The notes beneath the pieces were generated by a model. That model was not told where the DNA came from. It did not search any database and was given only the letters and a program-made list of their open reading frames with translations. From the NCBI GenBank assembly GCA_005879315.1, contig VBLC01000069.1:1-36033 (forward strand): a stretch of DNA of 36,033 bases, given 5' to 3'. The DNA is from Deltaproteobacteria bacterium. Lineage in GTDB: Bacteria; Myxococcota; Myxococcia; Myxococcales; 40CM-4-68-19. The translations under genes were made by a program, and so were the position numbers. This document shows positions 7,253 through 16,687 of the stretch, in pieces; the first letter of the stretch is position 1; each line of letters starts with the position of its first letter.

Positions 7253-7328
7253 GGGGCATTAGCTCAGCTGGGAGAGCGCCTGAATGGCATTCAGGAGGTC
7301 GGCGGTTCGATCCCGCCATGCTCCACCA
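7253..7328 (+). tRNA. tRNA-Ala (anticodon GGC)
   Basis: A complete cloverleaf of 76 nt including an encoded CCA. The acceptor stem GGGGCAT pairs with ATGCTCC and contains the G3:U70 wobble pair, the main alanine identity element. The D arm starts GCTCAGCTGGGAGAGC. The anticodon stem CCTGA/TCAGG encloses loop ATGGCAT with anticodon GGC. The T arm is GGCGG-TTCGATC-CCGCC. It reads GCC and GCU alanine codons. No integrase or att duplication is visible next to it. Confidence 0.97.
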
Positions 7329-7381: not shown

Positions 7382-8437
7382 CTACTCGCCGACCGAGAGC
7401 ATACCGATCGCGAATCCGCTCTTGGGTACCACCGGCGAGAGAGCTGAGGAGAGCAGCACCGCCCCGAACGCGGTGTCGTCGAAAACCTTTCCCGCGGCAG
7501 CGCCGGATTTCATGTCAAAGGAGAATCGGGCCAGCAAAGCGCCGGCCGCCAATACCTGATCGAGGTCGGCTGGCCCCGTCTTGCGGTGCGCGATGCCGGC
7601 GACCAGTACACCCGCCAGCGGACCGGTCGAAGGAACGATCGCCTTTGCGGCGATCTCGCCGTTGGCGTTGGGCGCGAGCGCGCTGCCTGCGATATCGAAC
7701 CCGGTGGCGGCGTCGAACGTCGCGCGGCCTGTATCGACTGCAAGATCGAGCGCCAGCCCGAAGGCGCTTTGCGGCGACGAACCGACGATCAGATCGAGCA
7801 CAGCTCGTGTCGAGGTCGAGGCGGCATTGCGAACCAGTCGCGCTGCGCCGCCCGGCGCCGGGTCGGAGTATTGCAGCCGCAGGACGTGCACCGTCGCGGT
7901 GGCGGTCACCGTCGTGCCTTCGCCAGTTGCGGAGAGGATATAGGCGGTTGTCTGGTCCGGACTGACGGATTTCGAAGTGCCCGCGACCGTGCCCACCCCC
8001 TGACTGATGGAGAGCGATGTCGCATTGCTCACGCTCCACGAGAGCGTCGAGGACTGGCCGGCCATGATGGTGCCAGGAGACGCCGTGAACGACGAGATGA
8101 CAGGGACCAGTGGATTGACGGTCACTGTAGCCGCCGCGGTGCTCGAGCCGAAGCTGTTGCTGGCAGTAAGCGTGTACGTGGTGGTTGCCGTGGGCATGAC
8201 GGTCGCGGACGCGCCGGTAGGCGTTCCCACGCCGTGATCGATGCTGAGGCTGGTGGCGCCGGTCACCGACCATGTCAGCGTCGACGAGGCGCCCGCCGCG
8301 ACGCTGGTTGGGGAGGCGCTGAATGAATCGATGGTCGGCTTGCTGTCCGACGTGCCCGAGGTGCCCGAAGTGCTCTTGCTGCAGGCGATCGACAAGACCG
8401 ACGCGGCGACCGCCAGCGTGCGCAGGGGGGCGTTCAT
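7382..8437 (-). CDS. Lipoprotein with two Ig-like repeats and a cohesin-like C-terminal domain
   Basis: Predicted lipoprotein of 351 residues: hydrophobic N-terminus ending LSIAC (Cys19 as lipidation site), then a Ser/Thr/Gly linker. Residues about 34-108 and 111-184 are two copies of the same Ig-like repeat (PTIDSFSASP / PVISSFTASP, STLTWSVTGATSLSI / STLSWSVSNATSLSI). Residues about 200-349 look like a cohesin module: AVLDLIVGSS, AFGLALDLAVDTGRATFDA, then GALLARFSFDMKSG, the usual beta-strand pattern of cohesins. Its ATG overlaps the stop of the upstream propeller gene (ATGA), and that protein ends in a dockerin-like module. The likely role is an outer-membrane or periplasmic anchor that binds the propeller protein. 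The Ig-like assignment is firm; the cohesin call is from pattern only. Confidence 0.7.
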   Translation of the reverse strand: MNAPLRTLAVAASVLSIACSKSTSGTSGTSDSKPTIDSFSASPTSVAAGASSTLTWSVTGATSLSIDHGVGTPTGASATVMPTATTTYTLTASNSFGSSTAAATVTVNPLVPVISSFTASPGTIMAGQSSTLSWSVSNATSLSISQGVGTVAGTSKSVSPDQTTAYILSATGEGTTVTATATVHVLRLQYSDPAPGGAARLVRNAASTSTRAVLDLIVGSSPQSAFGLALDLAVDTGRATFDAATGFDIAGSALAPNANGEIAAKAIVPSTGPLAGVLVAGIAHRKTGPADLDQVLAAGALLARFSFDMKSGAAAGKVFDDTAFGAVLLSSALSPVVPKSGFAIGMLSVGE

Positions 8438-11208
8438 GGCCGGCCTCCGAACTTCGCCAACAGCGCGACCATGTCGTCCCATGTGATCGAGTTGGTCGCT
8501 CCAGTGAGATTCGCCTTGGGGTCGTAGCCCGGTGAGGTGACGTCGGTGTCGAGCTGGAGCGCCTCGATCACCAGATCGATTCCATCGACGACCTGGTTTC
8601 CGTCGAGGTCCCCGTTGCCGCGCATTGCCGAGGGCACCGCGGCCTTCGGATATAGCTCCCAGAAGCCGCGCCCGTAAGTGGCGACGCGCACCGATGTGCC
8701 GTCGGAGGCTATGGAGAGATCGTTCACCTTGACCGACGGCATACCGCCGAAGCGCGTCCAGTTCGCGCCGCTGTCGCTGGAGACGTAGAGGCCGATGTCG
8801 GTGCCCACGTAGATCCGGCTGGAACCGAGCGGATCGACGCGGACCACGTTCGCCGGCACGTCCGGCAGCGGATTCGCTCCGCCTCTCCCGGACACGTCCG
8901 TCCAGGTCGGCGAAGCGTTGGTGGCGTTGGTCGTCTTGAAGACGTGGCTGCCGCCGTTGGGACCGGCATGGCTGGCGATCCAGACCGTCTGTCCGGTGGA
9001 GTCGCCCGGATCGAACGCGGCGCTGCCAAGCGGTTGCCACGCAGTGTTGACGGCGGGGCTTCTGCTCCAAGTGATGGGTGTGCTCCCAGACGCGTTCGTT
9101 GTTACGAAGATGCGGCCCCCCGAGAACGCGACGTACTTGCCCGACGACGTTGGGTGCGTAGTGACGCCGAGCAGCATTCCATCGAAGAGCCCGCCTGCGG
9201 CGGTGGTGCCGGTGACGGTACCGGTGATGTCGGCCCAATTGGCGGCGCCGTCCGCAGTGCGGAAGACTTGCGCGGTGATGGTCGCTGCCGGAGCGGAGTT
9301 GATCGGTGTGAGAAAAGTCTGCGCTGTCGCGTCGCTGGGGTCGTTGGCGATCTGCATGTGGAAGTTGGTCTGCTGGTCGATCGGGTTGGGCAGTCCCGTC
9401 ACCGCATCGTTGAAGGTCGCTCCCGAGTCGATCGAGCGGTTCACGAATGCGGGATAGGTGGTGATCACGAGCGAACCGAATGCGCCGGTGCTGCCGGCCT
9501 TGCCCACCCCGCAGCCGATGCCGTCGCCGCCAGTGACCATGTCGAAGAGCGTCGGCGTGCCGGTGTTGCGCAGGCGCGAGCCGTTGTCCTGCAAGCCGCC
9601 GAGGACGACGTTCGGCGCGCCGACCGCCTCCGACCCTGCGCAAATCTTCTGAAGGAGATGGGTTGGAAGCCCCCGATTCATCGCGTCGTCGAAAGTGGGC
9701 GAGACCGTGCCGCCGGGGCCAGTCGCGGGGACGCCGGGTGCCGCCGTAAGCGTGTCCTTGGACCGAAACAGGCCGCCGTCCGTACCGGCATACAAGACGC
9801 GCGCGCTGCCCGCGGTGCCGATCGCCATCGCGTGGTAGTCGGCATGGACGTAAGGGATCCCCAGCGCGTTGAAGGTGACGCCCGCGGCGGTCGCGTTATA
9901 AGGGAGCCAGTTCGCCACCACGTTCCAATGCGCCCCGCCATCCGTCGAGCGCACCAGCGACAAGTTCCCGCCGACGAATACGGTATCGCCGTCGGCCTGG
10001 ATCGCCTGGTTGTACCAAGCCTGGTCGTGCATCACGTTCAGGTCGGTCTGATCACTGTTCGGGTTCGTCGGCGGATTGTTGCTGTTGACGCCCAGCGCCG
10101 TGAACAGGGCTCCGCCGTCCACCGACTTGAACACGTCGAGTTGGTGGAAACCACCCACGTCCGAAGCGAGCACGTACATCCGCGCTGACCCCGGCGTGCT
10201 TGCGTCGCCTGCGGACGAAGAGACTGTCATGCGCCCGGGTGGCGTAACGGTCTGGTTCAAGCTGACTGCGGGCAGAGAGATCGGATTCCAGCTCGCGCCG
10301 TCGTCGGTACTGCGCCACAAATAGCCCGTTCCCCAGTAGCCAGCATTGCTGTCGTCGGTGCAGGCGAGCATCCAGGTGGTGCGGCCCACCCATGCCACGC
10401 TCCAGCAGTCCATCGGCGTGTGCGGCACGGTGGTCGGCATCTCGATCAACGTCCAGCTGCCGGTGGCGTGGGCCGTATTGCGGAACAGCCCGATGTTGGT
10501 GGCGGCGAGGACGATGCCGGTGTTGCCCCCGTTGAACTTCAGGTCGCGGACGGAGGTCGAGGTGCCACAAAGGGGCGGCGCAGCGGCGTAGCAGCCGGTC
10601 AGAATGGTTGGCGTGCTCCACCTCACGCCGCCATCGTCCGAGGTGAAGACGCCCGGCATTGGGATGTCGAACGGATCGCCCATTCCGAGGACCAGCGAGT
10701 CGGGGCTGTGGGGATCGAGGGCGAGCGAACCGATGCCCAGCCCGGGCAACTGCTCGTCCGTGATCGATTCCCAGTGCGGCTGCGCCGCGGTGGCATCGAA
10801 GGTTTTCCAGACCCCGCCGCCCGCGTTGGCGAAGTAAAGGACGTCGTTGTTCGTCGGATGCGGCAGGATGGTGCGGGCGCGCCCGGAGTCCAGGTTGCCG
10901 AACAGGACGCCATTCCAGTCGAAGGTGGAGCCTTCGGGCCCCACGTTCACCAGCACCCCCGGCGCAATCGGCGTCGCAACGGCAGCGCCGGGAGCGGACG
11001 GGGCTTGCCTCTGGAGCCGCGACCGCGACAGCTCCTGCTGTGCCGTCTGCTGCACGCGAAGCAGCGCCTCCGGCGAAAGCAGTCCCTCGCGCAAGATCCG
11101 CGACTGCATTCGCAGCGCAGGATCGTCTTTCTCTGCGCGTCCGCGCTCGAAGGCGTGCGAAGCCGTGGCGCAAAGCAACGAAACCGTTGCGACCAGGACC
11201 CGGTGCAT
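8434..11208 (-). CDS. Secreted BNR/sialidase-like beta-propeller with C-terminal dockerin-like module
   Basis: Protein of 924 residues with signal peptide MHRVLVATVSLLCATASHAF. Most of it is a beta-propeller made of BNR/Asp-box repeats: TSDDGGVRW, STDDGASW, SVDGGALF, STDGGAHW, SIDSGATF and SSDSGANW are all visible. The catalytic residues of a true sialidase cannot be recognised, so binding or an unknown lyase/hydrolase role is possible. Residues about 861-924 form a dockerin-like tail. The first calcium loop starting GDLDGNQVVDGID has D, D, N, D and D at loop positions 1, 3, 5, 9 and 12; the second, NLTGATNSITWDD, is degenerate; the helix DDMVALLAKFG follows. It is the upstream gene of a coupled pair with the cohesin-like lipoprotein. 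GAGGT lies 4 nt before the ATG. Confidence 0.8.
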   Translation of the reverse strand: MHRVLVATVSLLCATASHAFERGRAEKDDPALRMQSRILREGLLSPEALLRVQQTAQQELSRSRLQRQAPSAPGAAVATPIAPGVLVNVGPEGSTFDWNGVLFGNLDSGRARTILPHPTNNDVLYFANAGGGVWKTFDATAAQPHWESITDEQLPGLGIGSLALDPHSPDSLVLGMGDPFDIPMPGVFTSDDGGVRWSTPTILTGCYAAAPPLCGTSTSVRDLKFNGGNTGIVLAATNIGLFRNTAHATGSWTLIEMPTTVPHTPMDCWSVAWVGRTTWMLACTDDSNAGYWGTGYLWRSTDDGASWNPISLPAVSLNQTVTPPGRMTVSSSAGDASTPGSARMYVLASDVGGFHQLDVFKSVDGGALFTALGVNSNNPPTNPNSDQTDLNVMHDQAWYNQAIQADGDTVFVGGNLSLVRSTDGGAHWNVVANWLPYNATAAGVTFNALGIPYVHADYHAMAIGTAGSARVLYAGTDGGLFRSKDTLTAAPGVPATGPGGTVSPTFDDAMNRGLPTHLLQKICAGSEAVGAPNVVLGGLQDNGSRLRNTGTPTLFDMVTGGDGIGCGVGKAGSTGAFGSLVITTYPAFVNRSIDSGATFNDAVTGLPNPIDQQTNFHMQIANDPSDATAQTFLTPINSAPAATITAQVFRTADGAANWADITGTVTGTTAAGGLFDGMLLGVTTHPTSSGKYVAFSGGRIFVTTNASGSTPITWSRSPAVNTAWQPLGSAAFDPGDSTGQTVWIASHAGPNGGSHVFKTTNATNASPTWTDVSGRGGANPLPDVPANVVRVDPLGSSRIYVGTDIGLYVSSDSGANWTRFGGMPSVKVNDLSIASDGTSVRVATYGRGFWELYPKAAVPSAMRGNGDLDGNQVVDGIDLVIEALQLDTDVTSPGYDPKANLTGATNSITWDDMVALLAKFGGRP

Positions 11209-13619: not shown

Positions 13620-16565
13620 TTAGTCGTCGTCCCCGCCGCGGTCGTCGTCGCTGGCGCCGCGCAAGAGAAGGCGGTACCCGCCGCGGCCGTGCGTCGCGGC
13701 ATAGAGCACGCGCCCCGATTGCGACAGCGTCAGGTAGGGGACTTCCACCGGAGGCAGGCCCGAGCCGGCCATGTGCCAGTGAGTGGTCCCCGCCGGCTGG
13801 CGCAGGACCCCGAAGTCGGTGGAGACGAAGAGGTCGCCGGTCGCGTCGTCGCGGGCGATGGAGTCGACCGGCAGATCGCCCATCGGGCCGGTGCCGTCGT
13901 CGATCGGGACCCAGGTGGCGGTGACGCCGTCGTAGTCGATCTCGAAGACGTGGCCGGGTTTGTTGGGCTCGGCGCCCGTTGGTGCCACGGTCCCGCTGTA
14001 GCCGCCATAGGAAATCCAGGCGTGGAACGAGTTGTGTGGGTCGACCACGATCCCGCTCACGAAGCGGGGCGGCGAGTTGGCCGCGAACGTGTCGAGCCGA
14101 TGGTAGGTCACCGCAGCGGCCGGACCGTCGGCGTTGGTGGAGATGAAGACGCGCCCCATGCCCGTCGCCGCCCACAGCGTGTTGGTGTCGCTGGGCGTGC
14201 GGGCCACGACCGAGACGCCTCCGAGAGGTCGCGTGCCGCGCGCGGGGTCGGTCAGGTCGCCCGCGGCGCCGCCCAGCTCGACGAAGTCGCCGCAGGTAGG
14301 CTTCTCCCCGGTCGAGAGGGACTGGCAGTTCGCCTCCAGGAAGGCAGGGTTGCCGCCGTTGTCCTGCGTGCGCCAGACGCCCTGCGAGCCGGCGAAGATG
14401 GTGTCGGCCGCCTTGGGGCTCGGGTCGTAGATGATCGGCATGTAGAAGTAAGAGCCTTCCGGGCTGAAGAGGATCGGCCCGCCGATGTGGTACCAGCCGG
14501 CCGGATCGTTCCCTTTGCGGGTGCCGTGAACGTGCTGGCCGAAGTTGGTGCGTAGCCGGAAATTGGGCCGCGCCACGTTGTATCCGGAGAAGCCGCCGTC
14601 GCCTCCGCCGGTCTGCTTCCAGGTCACGCGCGAGCCGGTGAAGGCGAAGGTGCCGTTGTCCTGCGTCCCGCCCAGGAGCGAGCTGCGTGGCTTGGTCGGG
14701 TGCGCCGAGAGCATCTGGAACTGGATGGTGTTGAGCCCGAAGTTCATGTTGATGAAGGCGCTGGGGATGCTGGAGAGAAGCCGCTTGCAGGTGATGCGCT
14801 GGTCGGGCGTGAGCGGAGTCCCGTCGAAATTGCTGCGCGAATCGCACTGGGCCGAGGCGTCCACGTAGCGGCCGCTCGCGCGCATCAGGCCGCCATCCGA
14901 GCCTTCGAACCAGATCCCTGGCCGGCCCGGCACGAAGACGATGGCGTGCTGGTCGGGGTGGATCGAGTTCGGCGTCGTGGCGGAGGTGGCGTCGAAGGTC
15001 TGGTCGGTGAAGGTCCGGTTGTTGTGGCCCGGGTCGGGCTCGCCCGCGGTGAGCGAGCGCAGAACGGCGCGCGCGTTGGTGAAGGTGAACGACTCGTTGT
15101 ACTGGAAGGAGCCCAGCACGAACACCGTGTCCGGATGACCGGGCGGAGTGACGACCGCGTTGTCGTACCAGCACTGGCCGGTGCAGAAGTTGTAGGTCGC
15201 GTAGCCGGGATCGGCCACGGCGGAGCGGGTCAGCTTCTTCCATAGCCCAGGAACGCCCGGCGAAGCAGTCTGCGAGGCGAGCAGGACGGCGGCGGGCACC
15301 TCCGCAGTGTCGGCGCGCCACACCTGGCTCTCGAAAAAGCCGGGCGGACTACGGCCCACAGAGCCGTCGCCGGCGTAGATGCGAGTGTGGCCGTCCTTGA
15401 CGGTCAAGGCGAACTGGGTGCGATCCGTATTCCCCGCTGGGCTAGTCGGCATGAAGATCTGGGCGAACGGCGCGCCTCCGTCGCTGCGCCAGATGCCGAC
15501 CTGGAAGGCCGACGCATAGACGACGCTTCCATCGCGCGGGTCGACCCGCACCTCGATCACGCCGCGCAGCGTGGTGCTCCCGTTCCAGATGCGCGAGAAG
15601 GTCTTGCCGCCGTCGGTCGATTTGTAGAGGCCCAAGGGGGCCGGGTTCTGGGGAGGCGGCGGCGTGGAAATCCCGCCGCCGTCGCTCGCGGTCAAGCCGC
15701 GAATGCCGCGCGCCAACGCGACGTAGATGGCGCCGGCCGGATCGATGGCCAGCGAGGCCACCGATCGGCCCTTGGGGAAGTTGGGGAACACGCCTGCGCC
15801 GACGGTCGCGACCGCGGGCAAGAGGGTCCAGGTGTCGCCGCCGTCGGTCGACTTGTAGATGCCCACGCCCGCCTCGGAGTCGACGGAGGCGTTGGGCTCG
15901 CCGGTTCCCACGTAGAGGGTGTTGCCGCTGCCGTCGTTGGGATCGACCAGCAAGGAGCCGATGGCGTTGGAGCCGAGCGGACCGGAGATCCACTTCCAAT
16001 TGAAGTCCTTCGGTTCGTCGGACAGCGCCTTGTCGGTGCGCCAGACGCCGCCGCCGGCAGCGGCCAGCCAAAGGCGGCAGCGCTCCTCGCCGCAGTTCGG
16101 GTCGATGGCCAGGTCGGTGATGCGACCGGAGCTGACGTAGGGCGCACCGGTGCGGCCGAGGATGGCGGGATAGAAAGCGTTGGTGGGCCCCAGCGGCTGC
16201 CAGTTGAAATCCATCTTCTCGTCGTCGTCGTGGCGGGAAGCCACCTCGCGAAAGACGGAGGGTGCGGCGAGGCTCGCGTCGAGCGGCACTTCGTCGCCCG
16301 GCCAGGCGCGGTTCAGGTACTTCTCCTCGGCAACCGTGAACGGTCCGCCTTCTGCCTCGGCCACTGCGCCCGGAGCGTCGAGGTCACCTTGGCTCGCGAC
16401 ATCTGGACCGAGTTGCTTGGCGTGGAGGCGAGGCGCGCGAGCTTTCGCAGGCGAAGGATTCGTTCGCGCGACGTCGCCGAGGATCGGACTCAGTAGAAGG
16501 GAGACGAAAACGAGCGGGAACGCGCTGATCAAGATGCGCGGGACGCGCTGGAGCGACGCGAGCAT
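13620..16565 (-). CDS. Giant secreted BNR/VPS10-like beta-propeller protein
   Basis: Protein of 981 residues with an N-terminal hydrophobic export segment (ILISAFPLVFVSLLLSPILG). After a charged linker, residues from about 120 on contain many BNR/Asp-box repeats such as STDGGDTWTLL and STDGGKTFSRI, plus WLAAAGGGVWRTD, the same opening motif as the 924-residue propeller (ANAGGGVWKTF). The two propellers are therefore relatives. It lacks the dockerin-like tail and instead ends in an acidic stretch (DDDRGGDDD). The second of two nearby ATGs is chosen because GAGGGGG lies 6 nt upstream of it; the other would add 5 residues. The function is unrecognised beyond a secreted sialidase/sortilin-type propeller. 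Confidence 0.8.
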   Translation of the reverse strand: MLASLQRVPRILISAFPLVFVSLLLSPILGDVARTNPSPAKARAPRLHAKQLGPDVASQGDLDAPGAVAEAEGGPFTVAEEKYLNRAWPGDEVPLDASLAAPSVFREVASRHDDDEKMDFNWQPLGPTNAFYPAILGRTGAPYVSSGRITDLAIDPNCGEERCRLWLAAAGGGVWRTDKALSDEPKDFNWKWISGPLGSNAIGSLLVDPNDGSGNTLYVGTGEPNASVDSEAGVGIYKSTDGGDTWTLLPAVATVGAGVFPNFPKGRSVASLAIDPAGAIYVALARGIRGLTASDGGGISTPPPPQNPAPLGLYKSTDGGKTFSRIWNGSTTLRGVIEVRVDPRDGSVVYASAFQVGIWRSDGGAPFAQIFMPTSPAGNTDRTQFALTVKDGHTRIYAGDGSVGRSPPGFFESQVWRADTAEVPAAVLLASQTASPGVPGLWKKLTRSAVADPGYATYNFCTGQCWYDNAVVTPPGHPDTVFVLGSFQYNESFTFTNARAVLRSLTAGEPDPGHNNRTFTDQTFDATSATTPNSIHPDQHAIVFVPGRPGIWFEGSDGGLMRASGRYVDASAQCDSRSNFDGTPLTPDQRITCKRLLSSIPSAFINMNFGLNTIQFQMLSAHPTKPRSSLLGGTQDNGTFAFTGSRVTWKQTGGGDGGFSGYNVARPNFRLRTNFGQHVHGTRKGNDPAGWYHIGGPILFSPEGSYFYMPIIYDPSPKAADTIFAGSQGVWRTQDNGGNPAFLEANCQSLSTGEKPTCGDFVELGGAAGDLTDPARGTRPLGGVSVVARTPSDTNTLWAATGMGRVFISTNADGPAAAVTYHRLDTFAANSPPRFVSGIVVDPHNSFHAWISYGGYSGTVAPTGAEPNKPGHVFEIDYDGVTATWVPIDDGTGPMGDLPVDSIARDDATGDLFVSTDFGVLRQPAGTTHWHMAGSGLPPVEVPYLTLSQSGRVLYAATHGRGGYRLLLRGASDDDRGGDDD

Positions 16566-16687
16566 GGAAGACCCCCTCATTGGCCCCGAGACGCCTGTTG
16601 GTCTATCGGGCGGGCGACTTACCGGGAGGCTGGCGTCTAGTCAAGCTGCACTGCGTCCACCTATGCTTCAATTTGAAGGGAGTGGAC

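Follow-up and report, generated by a model that had tools for sequence, protein, structure and literature searches.

Two overlapping reverse-strand genes from a Deltaproteobacteria bacterium (assembly GCA_005879315.1) are likely to encode a dedicated, monovalent cohesin-dockerin anchor unit that works outside any cellulosome and would hold a propeller protein at the cell envelope. The window, that is, the whole stretch of DNA analysed, comprises the 36,033 nucleotides at positions 1-36,033 of the forward strand of contig VBLC01000069.1. In the mechanism that we propose, overlapping translation would cause the propeller and its receptor to be made together, both proteins would be exported, and the receptor would be lipidated at Cys19, with an Ig-like stalk bearing the cohesin at its far end. 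The C-terminal dockerin of the propeller would then plug into that cohesin, presumably in a calcium-dependent manner, so that the propeller would be retained at the envelope, most probably at the outer face of the outer membrane.

Architecture of the gene pair

The upstream gene (8434..11208, reverse strand) encodes a 924-residue secreted protein with a Sec-type signal peptide, a VPS10/BNR-like propeller of ~770 residues and a C-terminal dockerin. Its TGA stop codon overlaps the ATG start of the downstream gene in an ATGA tetranucleotide (8434..8437, reverse strand), and the open reading frames, coordinates and overlap given in the earlier note are correct as read. The downstream product is a 351-residue lipoprotein (7382..8437, reverse strand) that opens with a signal peptide carrying the lipobox LSIA-C19 (8381..8437, reverse strand), the combination of signal peptide and lipobox cysteine that characterizes bacterial lipoproteins. 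It continues with two Ig-like repeats, which would form the stalk (residues about 33-185; 7883..8341, reverse strand), and ends in a cohesin-like domain (residues 188-351; 7385..7876, reverse strand). The Ig-like repeats give a weak Pfam I-set match (E 3.8e-4, below the gathering score) and are accompanied by Ig-region matches across relatives; in a tblastn search of a plasmid collection, Deinococcus sequences match mainly over these same repeats. A promoter and terminator scan returned no site, and a tRNA-Ala (GGC) gene at 7253-7328 on the forward strand converges on the pair.

The propeller itself matches Sortilin-Vps10 in Pfam with an E-value of 3.9e-7, below the gathering score, and the NCBIfam F510_1955 glycosylhydrolase family in part, with an E-value of 1e-14, also below the cut-off; its activity would probably consist in binding or cleaving a polymer. 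The propeller family is present in 30 of 145 genomes of one Myxococcota class. A few kilobases from the pair, at 13620-16580 on the reverse strand, lies a distant 986-residue propeller relative that lacks a dockerin and shares about 25% identity with the dockerin propellers.

A dockerin-like module at the propeller C-terminus

Motif and family profile together support a dockerin-like module at residues 861-924 of the propeller (8437..8628, reverse strand). Its first calcium-type EF loop (8575..8610, reverse strand) reads D867-L-D869-G-N871-Q-V-V-D875-G-I-D878, with ligand residues at positions 1, 3, 5, 9 and 12, and positions 1, 9 and 12 are aspartate in 40/40 aligned paired sequences. In this propeller the second loop (NLTGATNSITWDD) is degenerate, whereas type I-like dockerins usually, though not obligatorily, have a calcium-competent second loop as well. 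The single intact calcium loop described in the earlier note therefore holds for this propeller and its close relatives but not family-wide: the second loop is intact in a same-genome paralogue on contig C19 (L098; DTNSDGNLDDTD), in L099 and in the M4 peptidase class described below. Because the L098 paralogue and L099 retain it, its loss in this propeller is probably secondary.

The dockerin profile search that the earlier note had called for was answered by the family rather than by the copy at hand, as this propeller's dockerin has no Pfam match on its own whereas Dockerin_1 is matched by 27 of 42 family members when matches at E up to 10 are taken (best E 1.5e-5). Among solved structures, the best match of the dockerin family profile is the dockerin 2y3n_B (E 6e-5), in an alignment that spans positions 14-75 and hence both halves of the tandem F-hand repeat. 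A stand-alone model of the module was weak (pLDDT 61, with two helices visible) and Foldseek returned no chain for it, so the dockerin assignment rests on sequence.

In every member the tail forms the very C-terminus of the protein, and its last residues are a near-invariant G-x-x-P, as might be expected of a calcium-dependent sorting signal read in transit, for which the cohesin-like lipoprotein would serve as chaperone or secretion receptor and not as a permanent anchor. We consider this improbable, as both fold and motif match those of modules known to serve for stable docking. Moreover, the terminal proline codon, CCA or CCG in 36/39 cases, supplies the A or G of the downstream NTG start (8434-8442 and homologues), so that codon and residue conservation are entangled and the proline may be conserved for coupling.

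Cohesin-like fold of the lipoprotein C-terminus

AlphaFold2 models residues 188-351 of the lipoprotein with a pLDDT of 95.3 and a pTM of 0.89. When the model was compared with solved structures by Foldseek, the first 21 chains were all cohesins, although only one of these matches had an E-value below 0.001 and the query TM-scores were moderate (0.35-0.61). VIA-align likewise placed cohesin modules in its first 47 rows (Z 11.1 to 7.8), the best of them with Z 11.1 and an rmsd of 3.0 over 138 aligned residues, ahead of the first non-cohesin fold at Z 7.4. The predicted model thus displays the cohesin beta-sandwich when set against solved cohesins, as the earlier note had anticipated from the strand pattern. 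The profile search that it had also proposed gave the opposite outcome: the Pfam Cohesin profile, which is a diagnostic aid and not a defining feature of cohesins, has no match among 40 family members or in the bacterium's own genome, and a PDB sequence search with the domain returned nothing. The lipoprotein C-terminal domain is therefore supported as cohesin-like by predicted structure and not by sequence.

Recurrence of the pair across Myxococcota

The searches yielded about 40 dockerin-propeller/cohesin pairs in a single class of Myxococcota, all related by descent and thus non-independent as counted events. Separate cohesin- and dockerin-profile searches of the class genomes converge on neighbouring genes, and widening the search to 195 genomes of the phylum brought almost no additions outside the class. 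Recurrence across genomes rules out chance resemblance. Among the 39 pairs in which the cargo gene precedes the receptor gene, 37 keep an in-frame 4-nt NTGA overlap (13 ATG, 23 GTG, 1 TTG), so that the ATGA-coupled order is indeed shared with other Myxococcota, and a lipobox is present in 37/37 receptors read from the overlap start, in agreement with a lipoprotein anchor. Departures from the arrangement comprise a reversed gene order (L093), a gap between the genes (L099), an apparent frameshift (L075) and two dockerin propellers preceding one cohesin (L066); in L069 and L103 the dockerin propeller lies near a contig end and its partner may be cut off. An S15 peptidase gene upstream of the window's own pair was not found beside the other pairs.

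By family profile, the bacterium's own genome holds three dockerins and three single-cohesin proteins, all of them paired (contigs C74, C50 and C19). A cellulosome was rejected as the setting, given the lack of any multi-cohesin scaffoldin and of Pfam Cohesin or Dockerin_1 matches in this genome, and the non-cellulosomal context proposed in the earlier note stands. Its claim of an exclusive one-to-one pair is only partly right, being too strong in view of three paralogous pairs in this genome and of two dockerin propellers per cohesin in L066. Adjacency in itself amounts to co-expression and not to contact, and the three pairs could cross-bind, which leaves room for a reading in which the genes are merely co-expressed and each of the two modules has its binding partner elsewhere in the cell. 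We regard this as very improbable, since exactly three modules of each kind are found, all paired; searches of the genome with Pfam Dockerin_1 (E <= 1e-3) and Pfam Cohesin (E <= 10) gave no match, and absence of the tail accompanies absence of the cohesin gene.

That last association comes from propeller homologues without a tail. In 19 Myxococcota loci, no cohesin or dockerin match was found in the fetched flanks even at E 1 (0/19; one more contig, the Acidobacteriota L033, has less sequence), and hence dockerin tail and partner gene are present or absent together. A Fisher test of this association counts related loci as if independent, and its value is descriptive. Eleven tail-less homologues align up to residue 854 of the window's propeller and end there, directly before the dockerin. 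Dockerin distances correlate with cohesin distances over 40 pairs (0.85); within-genome shuffling of partners gives a mean of 0.68, and 0/5000 shuffles reach the observed value. The pairs thus duplicate and travel as units; as linked genes are inherited together whether or not their products bind, the correlation is a measure of co-inheritance and not of contact.

Peptidases as a second cargo

The domain profiles also retrieve M4 (thermolysin-type) peptidases of 1,400-1,500 residues with a C-terminal dockerin, which in L126 scores above the Pfam gathering threshold. Behind each lies the gene for an Ig-cohesin lipoprotein, which starts 4-7 nt past the stop codon (L124-L135, L141 and L142, with only the C-terminal part of the cargo present in L131). 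Compared by hhalign, the M4 and propeller sets score 98.8% for the cohesin and 98.4% for the dockerin. Profiles built from the M4 set yield 24 strong dockerins in 145 genomes, and comparison of coordinates shows that 24/24 are followed, in the same orientation, by a strong cohesin. As the M4 set was itself retrieved with the propeller-pair domain profiles, it provides an independent check that the modules stay together when the cargo changes.

Further peptidases extend the picture less regularly. In L138 (4068-6637), a single M1-peptidase-dockerin protein has an ATGA overlap with a short lipoprotein that reads, from its sequence, like an autonomous cohesin. M1-type peptidases with a C-terminal dockerin also occur at L139 (3595-5472) and L140 (3480-5672), with no recognised cohesin neighbour, and genome G092 encodes four cohesin-like lipoproteins (L136, 3089-7211, and L137), one of them located behind a protein whose dockerin-like tail is divergent.

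These cargoes and their receptors also bear on the side of the membrane at which the propeller would be held. A lipobox alone is no proof of surface exposure and we identified no surface-export signal, which is compatible with a periplasmic tether, in which the lipoprotein would face inward or reside in the inner membrane and its dockerin partner would be kept in the periplasm. Such a location appears unlikely, if less so than the other alternatives considered here: receptors across the pairs range from 294 to 2,101 residues, the longest seemingly exceeding what a tether in the periplasm would require, and the M4 peptidases are of a secreted type. With anchoring at the outer surface as the favoured arrangement, we tentatively envisage, at somewhat less than even confidence, a class-wide system of envelope display, in which propellers, M4 and perhaps M1 peptidases carry a C-terminal dockerin and have as their gene neighbour a dedicated, monovalent cohesin lipoprotein with an Ig stalk, perhaps so that hydrolases stay on the surface during predation or matrix building.

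Comparison with known systems

Cohesin-dockerin pairing is best known for holding cellulosomes together. The cellulosomal type I and II pairs, as in C. thermocellum CipA and Bacteroides cellulosolvens (2y3n), share the cohesin fold and the F-hand dockerin and provide the best structural and profile matches to the modules described here. The myxobacterial pairs differ from them in having one cohesin per receptor without a scaffoldin array, a lipoprotein anchor, overlapping genes and propeller or protease cargo. If our reading is correct, predatory and social Gram-negative bacteria would have put the module to a separate use, in a conserved and duplicated version with a single cohesin, a lipoprotein anchor and exchangeable cargo. 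This use would assign a location to orphan secreted proteins and offer new binding pairs for surface display.

A literature search combining dockerin with myxobacteria or VPS10 returned no account of such pairs, a result that applies to those search terms and does not establish absence from the wider literature. Outside cellulosomes, cohesins and dockerins are known from archaea, clostridia, and ANME archaea and their partners, according to portions of two published accounts (PMC9012536, PMC10553843). For ANME archaea and their sulfate-reducing partners, those portions propose a non-cellulosomal extracellular attachment and report adjacent cohesins and dockerins together with Ig-like domains, some proteins with scaffoldin-like multi-cohesin arrays, and cargo that includes ABC-transporter binding proteins; unlike the present case, they describe no overlapping dedicated pair (PMC9012536, PMC10553843). 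TMEM132 likewise combines Ig-like and cohesin domains, but it is an animal protein with another domain order and no known dockerin partner (PMC6030884).

The same fold recurs in non-cellulosomal cohesins from Archaeoglobus fulgidus (2xdh) and C. perfringens glycoside hydrolases (2vo8, 2jh2), which VIA-align matches to our model at Z 8.9-9.6. In C. perfringens, cohesin-dockerin modules join enzymes to each other, whereas in the pairs described here the cohesin is carried by a dedicated, lipidated Ig-stalk receptor encoded beside its cargo.
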